Source of the DNA: Sergeia podlipaevii
Taxonomy: Eukaryota > Euglenozoa > Kinetoplastea > Trypanosomatida > Trypanosomatidae
Direction: 5' to 3'
Length of the DNA: 49,016 nt
Assembly: GCA_030849805.1 (NCBI GenBank)
Contig: JASANZ010002121.1
Span: forward strand, 1-49,016
Shown here: positions 1 through 31,787 of the stretch, piece after piece
Position numbering within the stretch: position 1 is the stretch's first letter
Layout: each line of letters begins with the position of its first letter
Translations under genes and position numbers: made by a program
Notes under the pieces: generated by a model
The model's input: the letters and a program-made list of their open reading frames with translations, nothing else
The model's database searches: none
What the model was told of the DNA's origin: nothing

Positions 1-2638
1 GGACTCCACCCGCCGCCATACAGCGCAGAGCTCCCTTGCGCAAAGAAGGAAGAGCCAGCGATGATTCCTCCTTCTGTAGAGCCGTGCGGATAACATCGCA
101 GCACTCCGCCGGCCTGCTGAAGATACGCTGGGTGGGACCACGGTTGGCAATAATGGACGCCAGAACGCTCGCCTGATCCCTCGGTAGGGAGGAAGGGATA
201 GCGTATGGTCCGCGAAAGCGCGCACCCTTGCCGCGTCGCATCGTCGCCACAACCCTCACGCAACCGTGTGGGACCTGTGCCTGCGCTGAAAAGAGGCCCT
301 CTGTCCTCTCCTCCTCCTCCGTGACAAAACGGATGTCGCTGCATTGGAGCGTGCGAATGTCTCCAGAGCGGGCCGCGAAGGCCCACATCATCTCCAAGTA
401 CAGAGATGCCTCTGGGTCCTGACGCAACAGTGCGCTGCTCTGCGCTCTCGTCACGTGCGCGCGGGTTGCCGCAGACGGCGGCTGAGGGATGCTCTCCTTC
501 TCGAACCTCTGCGCCGCGGCCAGAGCGTTGCGCCACTCCGGACAGTTGTTGAGGAAGATAGGCTCTGTCTGGTTTGTATATAGTGAGAGGTTCGCAAGGG
601 CCCCGCTGATTGACGCAAGAGCCTTGCAAACCGTTGCCCATTTCCATGCACGTGCCGCGGCCATGTGACGCACCAGCTCGATTATTGCTGACGCCAGGTT
701 CCTGTGGCGAAGAAGCTCCTGCGGCATTGCGCGAAGCTCGTAGAGCCATCGGCGGTGACTGTCGCGAGTCGAGCGTGTTACGCCCTGCCATGCCACCTCG
801 CTGATGTGTGGGGGTTTGTCGGCATATATGTACCACGTTCTCGGGCAGCTCGGTGCACCCCCTGTGCTCCGACTGCTCGGCTCGTTTAAATGAGCTCCTG
901 CCGTGGACGTATACAGCGCAGCTTTTGCGTCTGCGCTACAGTCGTTGTCCTCTGACTGTTGCCGCTGCACTGCAGCTGTGTCAACAACTTGTGGTGACGC
1001 AGCAACAACGGTAGTTGTGTTGCTGCGCTGCCCTTCCTGACGAGGCAAGGCACCAGCAGTTGTGGCAACGGTGGCTGCGGTGGGACGCAGCTCGTCGTAC
1101 CCAAAGTTCCTGTATCGTCGCAGTTCCTCTGGGTGAGGCATGCTCGCTTCTGGTGGAGCAACCGGCTTGTAGCACGTACCTCTTGGCAGACGCTTTCGTG
1201 CAAGCTGTTGGTAAGAATCCTCGGCAGGATTCCGGTAGACAGCTGCGACCGCCTGTGCGCTGTCCGTTGTCAGGACATAGCGACCAAGGAGGGAGGAATG
1301 GCTGTGCTCTTCTTGGGCCGCTGCAATGAATGCAACTCCCAACACAAACTCAAAGTCGCCGATGCGCTGCTGCATCGGCATGCATCTGCTGTCCTGTGAT
1401 GGCGGAGAACGCATGAGGTATCGCTCTCCTCCATCCTCCACAGCAGTCGACGCAAGGTCTTCCGGGAAAACAGGTGTCTTTCCAAGCACCTTGAGTGCCT
1501 CAACCACTGAGTATGGGATGTCCTTCTTGAATCCCAAACGGTGTGCTTGCATGGCAAGCGATGGAAGCTTGAGCGACCTCTTCGTGCCGTCACCAACGTT
1601 GGTGAGGGCGGATACGGCCCACATATAGTCCAGAGTGGCCCTGAATGCAACCCTCTCGCTCTCTGCAGCCTGTGCCATAGTGCTAGCAAGATGCTCCCGC
1701 ACTGATAAATTGGCGCTGTCTGTGCCGACCGCGATAGCCTCTCCATCTCTCCGTCTCTCCTCCGCAGCTACGTGGCGTGGAACGTAACTGTGTGGAAGCG
1801 GGTGCGAACTCGTGGCATCCGTGACAGGATGAGTGACACTGCTCTGCGAGGTCTGAACGATGCCTTCTTCAGGTGCTTCATGCACTGCTTGGCCAACCGA
1901 TTGACGCTGCGCATTGACTGCTTCAGCAATTGCAGCTGTAACCGTTTCTTCTGTCGGCACTGGTTCCGCAGCAACAGGAGGTGGTGGTGCATTGGTGTTT
2001 CCTCTCTCTGCCGTTTGGGGATATGGCTCGTAGCGAGGACTGTGATCTACACTCTTTGGCGGCTCCTTACCAGCACCTCCCTCAAATCCTGACTGGGCAT
2101 GTCGTCCGCAAAGGACGTTGCGCATCTTCTTCATGAACACCTCTTGTTCAATAGGAGCCAACGATACCTTGTAGAGAAATGGACGTAGTCTTGCCGCCAT
2201 AGTCACACCCTGTTTGATGGGGGTGTGGAGGTGGTGCGCGAAGAAGTTTGCAACCATGTGCAAACCGCAGTCGTCGCTGAAGCGCTTCTGGCGTAAGGCG
2301 CTCCTGTGCTCAATCTTCAGGTCCAGCCAAAGACTATGGATCTGCTTGTGGAGATCCCTGTGAACACATTCAGAAGGAGCCGAGTCCTGTATGTACAGGA
2401 TCGCCTCTTTGTCGTCTGGTGCAGATACCAGTATTCCGGCGATCCAATGGGATCGCAAGAAAATGGGGAAGTAGATAGTGCCAACACGACGGAGTTGTCC
2501 AGCAAGCTTATTGGCTGACTTGCTGGTCATCTCAAACATCGTGCGTGCGGAGACAACATTGTCCCTCGGAAGATAGCGGAGAATGATCGCATCGATCTCT
2601 GCGTCTGACTTCTTCCCATGGAGAAAATCTCCTCCCAT
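1..2638 (-). CDS. Ulp1-like protease / tyrosine recombinase polyprotein of a retroelement (partial, runs off the left edge)
   Basis: The frame is open from a TGA near 2853 to position 1, giving at least 879 codons from the ATG at 2638; other in-frame ATGs are at 2752 and 2530. I chose 2638 because the recognisable domain begins there. Residues 1-140 resemble Ulp1/SENP (C48) peptidases: an N-terminal helix of the SDAEIDAIIL type, His64 in SHWIAGIL, Asp85 in IQDSAPS, Gln117, and Cys124 in SDDCGLHM. A long Pro/Ala/Thr-rich linker follows. The last third is a tyrosine recombinase: Arg757 in AARSGDIRTLQ (catalytic Arg I), a basic RRGKGAR hairpin, and Arg867 in SLRKGALRCMAAGG (Arg II), where the usual H-x-x-R histidine reads as Pro. 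The nucleophile tyrosine would lie past the edge. The ORF overlaps the gag ORF by about 107 nt in the +1 frame, so translation needs re-initiation, leaky scanning or frameshifting. Confidence 0.85.
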   Translation of the reverse strand, partial: MGGDFLHGKKSDAEIDAIILRYLPRDNVVSARTMFEMTSKSANKLAGQLRRVGTIYFPIFLRSHWIAGILVSAPDDKEAILYIQDSAPSECVHRDLHKQIHSLWLDLKIEHRSALRQKRFSDDCGLHMVANFFAHHLHTPIKQGVTMAARLRPFLYKVSLAPIEQEVFMKKMRNVLCGRHAQSGFEGGAGKEPPKSVDHSPRYEPYPQTAERGNTNAPPPPVAAEPVPTEETVTAAIAEAVNAQRQSVGQAVHEAPEEGIVQTSQSSVTHPVTDATSSHPLPHSYVPRHVAAEERRRDGEAIAVGTDSANLSVREHLASTMAQAAESERVAFRATLDYMWAVSALTNVGDGTKRSLKLPSLAMQAHRLGFKKDIPYSVVEALKVLGKTPVFPEDLASTAVEDGGERYLMRSPPSQDSRCMPMQQRIGDFEFVLGVAFIAAAQEEHSHSSLLGRYVLTTDSAQAVAAVYRNPAEDSYQQLARKRLPRGTCYKPVAPPEASMPHPEELRRYRNFGYDELRPTAATVATTAGALPRQEGQRSNTTTVVAASPQVVDTAAVQRQQSEDNDCSADAKAALYTSTAGAHLNEPSSRSTGGAPSCPRTWYIYADKPPHISEVAWQGVTRSTRDSHRRWLYELRAMPQELLRHRNLASAIIELVRHMAAARAWKWATVCKALASISGALANLSLYTNQTEPIFLNNCPEWRNALAAAQRFEKESIPQPPSAATRAHVTRAQSSALLRQDPEASLYLEMMWAFAARSGDIRTLQCSDIRFVTEEEERTEGLFSAQAQVPHGCVRVVATMRRGKGARFRGPYAIPSSLPRDQASVLASIIANRGPTQRIFSRPAECCDVIRTALQKEESSLALPSLRKGALRCMAAGGV

Positions 2639-3737
2639 GCACACTTCCTTTGTTACAGCAGGACGCGCCTCCTTTACAGTACGTTCTGCTGACGGCCTGG
2701 CGCGTAGCTGTTTTTGGCCCTTCGATACGGGGAAGATCGGGCCTCCTCTCATTTCCCATGGTGTTGGACTCGTCGTCCAAGCCGCCTCCTCGACGTTGCT
2801 TCTGTTTTGGCTTCTTGGTCTTGAAGGAGCTCGTCGCCTGTTGCGACTTGCTCATGCCGGAGTCAATGTGAGATTTCAGCATCCTCCTCTTTGCAGCAGA
2901 CAATGTATTGACCTGCTCGGAAAGAGAACCAAACGCCATCTCCACCTCAGAGAGATCCGCAACGCCAGTTTGTGCACCCTGTGCGTCGTACACAGGGGCG
3001 AGGTAACCACTGCTCCAGACAGTGATGTCGGGATATGTAAATCCCTTCTGCAGCCTTGCAGATACTGAACTTCCACCATTGAGTTCCAACACAGCGTTCA
3101 GTGCGTCTGTGTTTCGTGACGCCGTGTTGTCGTGGAAAGGGAGCAAAGGGACGGGCAAACGGGAGATCGCCAAAGCGCTGGTGTACTGCCTCTCAGCAGG
3201 CCACTCAGACGCCTTGCGGAAATTGTAACACTGTAGCTGTGTTACAGGGGCCTCCCGGAGCCAGCAGTTGATGAGCCACACCATGTTCTTGTATAGCTCT
3301 GCCTCAGTGGCAACGCGACCCTTAATTGCCATGGTTGATCCAACAACAACAACGAATGCAGGATCTAGATGGCCTCCACCGGCCTTGACGTAGAACTCCC
3401 TCATCAGGTGTTCCACAAAGTCGAGACTCTCCATCGACTGTTCGAACATCTTCTCACTGGCTTGAAACCGTTCCAAGGTCTCAATGCCAGGATAGATGTT
3501 CCGGCGCTCAGTGCGGTGGATGTACTCCATGTAGTCGGAGGAGCCACCAGTGTTCTTGTTTTTCAGGGTATCCTTCAAAACAATAAACGAGGATTGCAGA
3601 GATTTTAAGGCTTGCTCCTTTAGTTTCTCTGCCTTGCTGCTTGGTGGAAGATCACTCAAGCCTTCCATCATCTCCTCATAACACCTAAATGGCTCCTCCA
3701 TGCCAGGGAAATCCCGTATGTCAGCAATGGAGAACAT
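2532..3737 (-). CDS. Gag-like protein of a TATE/VIPER-like retroelement
   Basis: The product is 401 residues from the ATG at 3737; the frame is open a little further upstream but without an ATG. A pyrimidine-rich stretch ending in AG dinucleotides lies just before the ATG. The N-terminal two thirds are mainly helical with no enzymatic motif. The C-terminal part is strongly basic (KKPKQKQRR) and Cys-rich, with a knuckle-like C-x5-CC-x5-H beginning near residue 354, as expected for nucleic-acid binding by a Gag. It stands immediately upstream of, and overlapping, the protease/recombinase ORF. The Gag assignment rests on position, basic/Cys tail and element context, not on a recognised family signature. 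Confidence 0.7.
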   Translation of the reverse strand: MFSIADIRDFPGMEEPFRCYEEMMEGLSDLPPSSKAEKLKEQALKSLQSSFIVLKDTLKNKNTGGSSDYMEYIHRTERRNIYPGIETLERFQASEKMFEQSMESLDFVEHLMREFYVKAGGGHLDPAFVVVVGSTMAIKGRVATEAELYKNMVWLINCWLREAPVTQLQCYNFRKASEWPAERQYTSALAISRLPVPLLPFHDNTASRNTDALNAVLELNGGSSVSARLQKGFTYPDITVWSSGYLAPVYDAQGAQTGVADLSEVEMAFGSLSEQVNTLSAAKRRMLKSHIDSGMSKSQQATSSFKTKKPKQKQRRGGGLDDESNTMGNERRPDLPRIEGPKTATRQAVSRTYCKGGASCCNKGSVHGRRFSPWEEVRRRDRCDHSPLSSEGQCCLRTHDV

Positions 3738-5181
3738 ACTACTGACTTGGGTAGTAGAAAAGAAAACAGACAAAGAAATAAAGCACCTATTTGATTTGTC
3801 TTTTAGACAACAACGTACGTTATCTGTTTATGGAAACAAATATGTTGTCTAATGTAAATCAAACTATTTCTTTTTATTCTTCTATCAATCCTAACAAAAA
3901 ATCTGTTTTCCTTTTTCGCGAAAACGACTTTCTATTCCTAGCAAGAAGATAAAGTGTATGCTATTCGCAATGCAAAAGAGATCAGTGTAATTTGAGAAAA
4001 CAGAGATTAAACAACCTCCTCGAGCTTTGGACAAAAGCAAAGCACACCAATAGTACGTACACCAGAGTAGGAAGAAACCAATACACTGTGATGCAGAAGA
4101 CCTGCAAGAAGGCTTGCATCTATTTGCTAGCTGAATAGTCTATCATTCAGTTCGTCAAGGAATACACTCGGGGAATCCGGTGAGCAAAGCCTTCTCGACG
4201 TCTAAGTAGACACTCATCCGCAGCTCAAATGTATAGCGTAAAAATGCGAAAGAGCTAATTTGTGCTGGCGTAAGTGTAAACTCCTTATCAATATCAATAT
4301 TGATCTATTAAGCGATCCTTACGTGGGTGACGTTTCCCACACGTAACGGCAGGAGCTGAAGCTATCGTATACATAATACCATGTGGCTCATCCAGGTGAG
4401 ATTCTTGCGAATAGTAGATTAATACTACATGCGATTGACAAGGCATTGACAGCTCCTCCAGGTTTATCATTTTCACCTGCTATTATATCATTGTTGTTTT
4501 ATATGTATAATACTAATTAGCGCTTGAGAATGTATTGCACAAACACACACGCACGCAAAGGGTGTGAACATCATAGAAAGAAGTAGAAAAAAGGATCGAG
4601 ACAATGAAAGATAGCCCATCTAATCGATACAATTGGCGTAAATGAATGCGCATTTTGGATGCGTATTCAGGTTGACACAGGTTGCATAATGTACTGCTCC
4701 TCCTGTGTGCAATGCCACATTTCCGCGTTGTAAGCAATCAAAGAGGCACTTGATGTATTTTTTTCTTGATATTCCAGTGTTGTCATGTGTATCACAAAAC
4801 GGTGGAGAAAAAAAAATTTACAACTATATACTCCTTCCGCTAACAATTCATTCGTGTGCTTTTCTTTTCACAAGCATCCCCTTTTAAGAATAATTGTTAT
4901 ATTTATAGTTATAACTATACAGACAAAATGCTACAATGAGCACATTTTCCCAAGTGTGATTTCATACATATTCAAAAATGATTTCCAGTAGTTCAAAAAA
5001 AAAAAAAAAGAATCTACCACTGGGAGAAAAAAAAATGGTAGCACTAGAAGTGGCTACCGTGAGGGGTGTGATTCATCAATAAGCATTTTAAACAAGAAAA
5101 GCAAAGTTATTTTTTGGTGTTTTCTCTTTTATTGCTTATCCTAACTATTTCTTTCTTTTCTTTGGGTTAATACATGTGCTC
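3738..5181. other. Intergenic, AT-rich; no gene seen
   Basis: This stretch holds the 3' flank of the coiled-coil/Cys-repeat gene and the 5' flank of the retroelement. It contains A-runs at about 4998-5010 and 5027-5035 and one copy of a motif shared with two other intergenic regions (4057-4067). Minus-strand ORFs of 60-74 codons (4294-4476, 4513-4737) have no coding character. No telomeric hexamer array, tRNA or terminal repeat was recognised. Confidence 0.6.
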
Positions 5182-31019: not shown

Positions 31020-31787
31020 TTACTTGGGGTCACCAATGCGCTTCAACGCGTCAACAATGAGGCCCCAAAACTTCCCGTGGTCAAGCTTCACAGCAACCTG
31101 CGTGCGGCAGTCGGGACCGGGAGGTGAGCGAAAGTCGGCAACAGTCATACCAACAGTCAGCTTGCCGGTCAGCTCAATGTCAACAGGAACGCGCTGCGTC
31201 GTCATCACAGACTGGTCGATCACGTACGCCACAGCGCACGGGTCGTGCACAGGCGGGAACTCGAACCCCTGCTCGCGCTTGTACTGTGTCGCAAAGAACC
31301 GCAGCAGTTCCACAACAAAGCGGGCGGGCTTCGTGCCAACAGCAGCAACTTGCTCCACCACAGCGGGCGTCGCAAGCGCCTGGTGCGTCTGGTCGAGCCC
31401 AACCATCGTCAGCGACCACCCAGCGTTGAACACAATGTGCGCGGCCTCGGGGTCAATCTTGATGTTGAACTCAGCAACGGGACTCCAGTTGCCGGTGTGG
31501 TAGCCGCCGCCCATCAGCACAACCTCCTGCACGCGGTCGATGATGCGCGGCTCAAGGCGCGCCGCCATCGCAATGTTAGTTAGTCCGCCGGTGGGCACAA
31601 TCGTCACCGTCTTGGGCTCGTGCGACATGATCAGGTCAATGATCAGCTGCACCGCGTGGCGCTTATCAAGTGGGATCGACGANGTCGTCACGGCAAGCAG
31701 CTCAATGTTCGGGTTGCCGTGGGCAAGCAGAATGGCTACGGCGTCATCGAGGCCGGGGTCGCAGTCGAGGATGATCTTGCGGGCCAT
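31020..31787 (-). CDS. IUNH: Inosine-uridine nucleoside hydrolase, internally incomplete at an assembly gap
   Basis: The product is 255 residues as read, from the ATG at 31787 ([26 protein letters not shown]). The enzyme cleaves purine and pyrimidine ribonucleosides for base salvage. Asp10, Asp14 and Asp15 of the calcium/ribose site, [32 protein letters not shown] and [12 protein letters not shown] (His-Asp) are present. After ELLAVT, about 60 residues expected from the Crithidia enzyme (about 315 residues) are missing. The jump falls exactly at an undetermined base (31683) and removes the equivalents of Asn39 and the HIHG loop. I read this as a mis-sized assembly gap rather than a real deletion, as the rest of the gene is intact and in frame. 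Codon use is markedly GC-rich at third positions compared with neighbours, as for a highly expressed gene. Confidence 0.93.
31683..31683. other. Undetermined base marking a probable collapsed gap
   Basis: The only N in the window. It lies at the point where the nucleoside hydrolase loses about 60 conserved residues. Confidence 0.9.

Follow-up and report, generated by a model that had tools for sequence, protein, structure and literature searches.

What is a domain resembling the proteases that remove SUMO doing in the same reading frame as the recombinase of a retrotransposon? The question arises at one end of a 49,016-nucleotide stretch of Sergeia podlipaevii DNA (contig JASANZ010002121.1 of assembly GCA_030849805.1; the whole stretch is referred to here as the window, and is contig C422 of the 23.4 Mb genome of 576 contigs used for comparison). 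A sequence-only reading had described there a Ulp1-like cysteine protease fused to a tyrosine recombinase in a kinetoplastid retroelement, and had suggested that the protease either processes the element's own products or strips SUMO from host proteins at the integration site. Our best overall explanation, which we regard as probable though far from secure, is that a TATE-like tyrosine-recombinase retrotransposon of a trypanosomatid-like host runs off the contig here, leaving its 5' part in the window, and that its second open reading frame (ORF2) encodes a polyprotein consisting of a CE-clan, Ulp1/adenain-like cysteine protease, a middle domain and a tyrosine recombinase. The frame itself, the predicted protease fold, an invariant His-Asp-Gln-Cys set and the same order of domains in relatives form the established part of this explanation.

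A Ulp1-like protease in frame with the recombinase

ORF2 (protein P0001) lies at 2..2851 on the minus strand, which carries all ATG-initiated frames longer than 200 codons in the window. It comprises 950 codons, with a first ATG at 2752, and is still open at the first base of the contig, where its 3' end is cut off. The long frame of at least 879 codons proposed previously therefore exists, but the sequence-only reading stopped at 2638 and left the strand unstated; the 5' side is in fact 71 codons longer, and residue n of that reading is residue n+71 of ORF2. Reading the region on the plus strand was rejected, as that frame contains many stops.

The protease domain spans approximately residues 72–247 (2111..2638, minus strand). 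Its predicted catalytic residues are His135 (codon 2447..2449), Asp156 (2384..2386) and Cys195 (2267..2269), accompanied by Gln188 (2288..2290), all on the minus strand; the glutamine occupies what we take to be the oxyanion-hole position of Ulp1-type proteases. These are the residues previously numbered His64, Asp85, Cys124 and Gln117. Alignment of 10 copies with 19–50% pairwise identity left only 8 invariant columns among the 73 filled in all rows, and each of the four named residues, invariant in 10/10 rows, falls within those 8 (p about 6e-5 for four named columns), which makes the match more than chance and rules out a fortuitous resemblance among copies so divergent. The free variation of His, Asp and Cys that had been named beforehand as counting against a protease was thus not seen.

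Assignment to a formal family was the weak point. Against Pfam Peptidase_C48 (PF02902, gathering cut-off 20.7 bits) the window protease scored 12.2 bits (E 0.16) and the best single copy, L023, 18.4 bits (E 0.0021), both below the cut-off, while the family was unlisted for the other 10 sequences scanned (one of which, P0005, is without the domain). The same search across the genome listed only a host frame on contig C551 and did not find the TATE copies. As single copies remain below the cut-off, the domain is named here Ulp1-like rather than a formal member of PF02902. A PDB search with P0001 alone returned only noise, whereas a profile built from 8 copies found yeast Ulp1 (E 0.0012), with His, Gln and Cys in register and Asp out of register. 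The predicted fold of the domain matches that of SENP5/Ulp1, the best fold matches being SENP5, OtDUB and SENP3 (SUMO and ubiquitin proteases), and a BFVD search gave five matches below E 0.001, of which three are annotated as viral ubiquitin-like proteases. The C48 assignment of the sequence-only reading accordingly found no Pfam match over the cut-off, but the C48/Ulp1-like identity is settled by the profile together with the comparison of the predicted fold. Adenain, yeast Ulp1 and human SENP5 share the CE-clan fold with the domain, but have no recombinase fusion and are only 12–17% identical to it in structural alignments. Recent capture of a host SENP was considered and rejected, the C551 frame being the genome's sole PF02902 match and scoring weakly (11.0 bits) with the TATE protease profile. 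A search of viral contigs yielded 15 pattern matches, none confirmed, and a search of phages led to nothing.

The recombinase domain (2..847, minus strand) is incomplete. Both catalytic arginines of the earlier reading, Arg757 and Arg867 there, were located as Arg828 (codon 368–370, minus strand) and Arg938 (38–40, minus strand), and the domain shows the Cre/integrase fold; the nucleophilic Tyr, present in 7/7 relatives (P0004–P0010), would lie beyond the contig end, as the window stops before it. The His of the box-II HxxR motif is absent from 8/8 recombinases, the window's included. The two nearest proteins bear out the kinetoplastid and TATE-like labels, one being annotated 'TATE DNA Transposon [Leptomonas pyrrhocoris]' (P0004, 46% identity over 86% of the recombinase query) and the other, equally close to the window recombinase, a Leishmania protein without the TATE name (P0005).

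Of the eight proteins that include the protease and extend as far as the recombinase, seven have both in a single frame (P0001, P0004, P0006, P0007, P0008, P0009 and P0010), so that intact copies do not show the separating stop which the sequence-only reading had set against a fusion. Six sources besides the window (P0004, P0006–P0010) have unbroken frames of 771 to 1513 amino acids. In the exception, P0003, a relative that carries a reverse transcriptase (PF00078), likeness to the recombinase ends after its first residues, from which we infer a change of frame after the start of that domain.

Between the two enzymes the region is conserved, with Leu-Cys-Tyr and Gly-His-Tyr motifs, and forms the middle domain (1226..1708, minus strand). 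The Cys and His of these motifs are both kept in five of the eight copies that cover both sites (P0003, P0005, P0006, P0007 and P0008); P0004 keeps the Cys only, and neither is found in P0009 or in the window, which has Asp408 and Arg524 in their place. Of three further copies, L022 and L024, which end before the His, keep the Cys, whereas it is missing from L023. A middle-domain profile of 7 copies matched only designed helical proteins in the PDB (E 0.11 or worse), and Pfam scans of 7 middle domains gave no family below E 0.14. The Cys begins a helix in the model of P0008, although the fold-match list for that protein barely tests this domain. The pattern of a Cys/His pair in 5/8 copies, absent from the window and P0009, is a possible mark of a second, decaying protease, and our guess would be a reduced papain-like or USP-like enzyme.

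One relative, P0010 (from an ENA contig), has at approximately residues 376–630, where the others have the middle domain, a USP-type ubiquitin hydrolase (PF00443, E 3e-6 and over the cut-off when the segment was scanned alone; USP14, E 1.4e-5); PF00443 was not listed when the whole of P0010 was scanned. A second Ulp1-like His/Asp/Gln/Cys set was noted by eye in the same protein at approximately residues 740–825, between the first protease and the recombinase, and this stretch had no family match.

Candidate Gly-Gly sites and the proposed role of the protease

Two hydrophobic-x-Gly-Gly motifs flank the protease of the window and resemble the consensus reported for the adenovirus protease, adenain, (M/I/L)XGG-X (PMC7998265); this is a new observation. 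The candidate cleavage sites follow the Gly-Gly of CMGG/DF at the N-terminal edge of the domain (2630..2635, minus strand) and that of FEGG/AG in the linker behind it (2075..2080, minus strand), the slash marking the cut. The post-protease linker varies in length, and was delimited by us as beginning 50 residues past the Cys and ending 20 short of the middle-domain motif. Within it Gly-Gly occurs in 12/12 copies (shuffle mean 3.34) and [LIMFYVC]xGG in 10/12 (shuffle mean 0.67), neither count being reached in 20,000 shuffles, whereas the control linker between middle domain and recombinase has the latter motif in 0/8 (expected 1.08). With the strict adenain set, [MIL]xGG, the counts were 7/12 (shuffle mean 0.39; 0 of 20,000 as high), the window not being among the seven, and 0/8 in the control; adding the adenain form [MIL]xGxG left 7/12 and gave 1/8. 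At the N-terminal edge the wider motif is present in 6/9 rows (shuffle mean 0.58; 0 of 20,000 as high) and the strict one in 4/9 (0.31; 1 of 20,000), two of the rows, P0007 and P0008, having only 8 and 3 residues there. In 14 host frames of the window, 9 motifs occur over 7409 residues. Four of five Gag frames, at four loci, have a like motif within two columns of one C-terminal place.

The adenovirus protease matures virion proteins (PMC7998265, PMC7464072), and the DIRS order is described as lacking an aspartic protease (PMC12440569). Membership of the same clan as adenain, the flanking motifs and an order without an aspartic protease together make a maturation protease the simplest reading, and we consider it reasonably probable that the domain is self-processing, cutting after Gly-Gly within ORF2. 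The enzyme would cut after the Gly-Gly of the hydrophobic-x-Gly-Gly motifs on either side of itself, the cleavage would release the recombinase from the protease, and Gag would perhaps be trimmed as well; in this way the protease would fill the role of the aspartic protease of Gypsy-like elements, one not found in DIRS elements. Of the two roles suggested by the sequence-only reading, the sequence favours processing of the element's own products over SUMO stripping at the target site.

Several observations weigh against this assignment. The P4 residues of the window itself, Cys at the N-terminal edge and Phe in the linker, are outside the strict adenain set, the Gly-Gly of P0004 and that of P0010 have no hydrophobic P4, and one of the five Gag frames has no motif at the shared place; motif counts in single Gag frames were not significant (800 to 2718 of 20,000 shuffles as high). 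The motif was noticed and tested on the same sequences, the linker limits were set by us, the wider residue set was picked once the sequences had been inspected, and the copies are related, so that the shuffle statistics make the case look stronger than it is; L022 is a near copy of L024, without which the linker count is 9/11. The Gly-Gly at the N-terminal edge may owe its conservation to the fold, and recognition of Gly-Gly fits a SUMO or ubiquitin protease equally well. An amplified recombinase family at 10 loci of the same genome (L020, L025–L032 and L034; an eleventh, L033, was left out of the comparison) has no protease that could be found upstream. Finally, copies in this genome look partly decayed: in the closest pair, L022 and L024, the second of which is frameshifted, the non-synonymous and synonymous distances (dN and dS) of the protease are 0.045 and 0.043 over 100 codons, indicating no purifying selection, with values of 0.084 and 0.142 for the whole aligned frame and 0.099 and 0.454 for Gag.

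Members of the amplified family are 84.9–89.7% identical to one another in nucleotide sequence over 1.8–2.9 kb. Their recombinase frame starts 24 codons before the domain at 9/10 loci and 10 codons before it at the other, and the roughly 1.5 kb that they share upstream contains no forward frame over 136 codons and no protease detectable by profile search. Stops interrupt the matched recombinase stretch at 8/10 loci, and the family is read as a reduced or decayed TATE family, whose place the recombinase tree does not resolve.

A deconjugase that acts on SUMO, ubiquitin or a similar modifier is a less likely but serious alternative; it would strip the tag from host proteins, such as those on the chromatin where the recombinase inserts, or from the element's own proteins, which would thereby escape degradation. 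It accounts for the fold as well as processing does, since SUMO and ubiquitin proteases gave the best fold matches, and it can draw on the ubiquitin hydrolase that P0010 holds at the middle-domain place and on the Ulp1 domains of some Ginger1 and Mutator transposons, for which a role in transposition has been proposed (PMC2836005). It fits the motif less well, leaving unexplained why this stands beside the protease in its own protein yet not in the next linker, and the middle domain of the window is without the Cys/His pair of 5 relatives. The two activities might also be combined, as described for viral deconjugases including adenain (PMC7464072), in an enzyme that matures the element's proteins and strips ubiquitin-like tags; the motif data and the fold data are each compatible with such a dual function, but both are candidate activities, and we think the combination improbable. 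Least likely of all, in our estimation, is a decayed passenger, with catalytic residues kept by descent in copies that are dead here and a protease that is now idle in transposition. The near-equality of dN and dS in the protease of L022 and the frameshifted L024, the amplified family without the enzyme and the loss of Cys and His from the window's middle domain would all suit such a history; it is difficult to reconcile with His, Asp, Gln and Cys invariant in all ten copies, of which the closest pair is only about 50% identical, or with the long unbroken frames in six sources besides the window. A maturation protease remains our preferred assignment.

The Gag-like frame and the probable 5' end of the element

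Upstream of ORF2, and overlapping it in another frame, ORF1 (2532..3737, minus strand; 401 codons) is Gag-like and includes a candidate LNGG motif. It had no Pfam match, and its identification as the upstream Gag-like frame of a TATE element rests on its position and on the weak similarity (15–20%) of the Gag frames at four loci. The idea that Gag and ORF2 are regularly linked by a programmed frameshift was rejected, since their relative frame, as judged from the coordinates, varies between copies. At other loci of the same genome (L020, L026 and L027) reverse transcriptase frames overlap the recombinase frames.

A stretch of 118 bp (3892..4009, minus strand) is a probable terminal repeat on the 5' side of the element, perhaps A1. 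A match of 97% identity to it lies in contig C485, and another, over 44 bp, at the extreme end of contig C330; both end at window base 4009, where the window flank diverges. We tentatively take the element to span the window from 1 to about 4009, with the 118-bp stretch as its 5' terminal repeat. TATE elements insert in telomeric repeats. Directly before the 118-bp repeat in C485 (1–569, L053) and at the C330 end (L054) there is also a sequence of approximately 450 bp, 87% identical between the two, which does not precede the repeat in the window; it is hard to fit to the published A1...B1-A2-B2 order of the split direct repeats of TATE, and possibly represents solo repeats or other element ends.

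Elsewhere in the window, a nucleoside hydrolase frame at 31020–31787, in which one codon close to the start is ambiguous and translates as X, matched structures 1ezr, 8ctm and 1mas (E 2.4e-117 or better), which we take to come from Leishmania and Crithidia. Taken with the relatives of ORF2, this indicates a trypanosomatid; a search with a spliced-leader pattern gave no match.

Parallels, possible origin and meaning for TATE biology

Cryptons are DNA transposons without reverse transcriptase. The nearest known parallels to ORF2, likened here by description, are the oomycete CryptonF-2_PS and CryptonS, in which a C48 peptidase is reported alongside a tyrosine recombinase, although in CryptonS the peptidase belongs to an additional protein (Kojima and Jurka 2011, PMC3212892). 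Ulp1 or OTU domains also occur in some Ginger1 and Mutator transposons, which likewise combine a transposase with an Ulp1-type protease, but their transposases are of the DDE type, they have neither recombinase nor reverse transcriptase, and the domain of Ginger1 is C-terminal (PMC2836005). The Ngaro frames described for Cafeteria include no such protease in the account of PMC8547959.

Ribeiro et al. 2019 (PMC6681497) place TATE itself in the VIPER-like subgroup of DIRS, with a layout that begins, as here, with a Gag-like frame and a long recombinase frame (982 amino acids aligned in L. braziliensis), followed in TATE by reverse transcriptase/ribonuclease H. The TATE section of that paper differs in giving only the recombinase and, N-terminal to it in L. 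braziliensis, a low-significance SPOR match. Its main text contains none of the words Ulp1, C48, SUMO, protease and cysteine, nor does the main text of PMC12278014, on TATE and VIPER, mention Ulp1, C48, SUMO or a cysteine protease; the sequence-only reading, which knew of no SUMO-protease-like domain in such elements, agrees with both. In the open-licence literature of PMC we found no report of a protease domain in TATE or of a Gly-Gly-cutting TATE maturation protease.

The TATE/VIPER recombinase has been found allied to that of Crypton (PMC6681497), and with C48 peptidases occurring in Cryptons, joint inheritance of protease and recombinase is possible by analogy. More speculatively, and with the balance of our judgement still against the full proposal, TATE may carry a virus-like, Gly-Gly-cutting CE-clan maturation protease for ORF2 and Gag that was inherited with the recombinase from a Crypton-like donor already pairing the two, some relatives having added a ubiquitin hydrolase. 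The locus adds to the oomycete Cryptons a further example of an element in which a C48-type peptidase accompanies a tyrosine recombinase, and the pairing bears on the proposal that such elements are a Crypton joined to a reverse transcriptase. A likely function can also be assigned to some 180 residues of TATE ORF2 in which the TATE section of PMC6681497 names no reliable domain. In an order described as being without the aspartic protease found in other LTR-type elements, the conserved protease, together with its candidate cleavage sites, makes TATE protein maturation directly testable.
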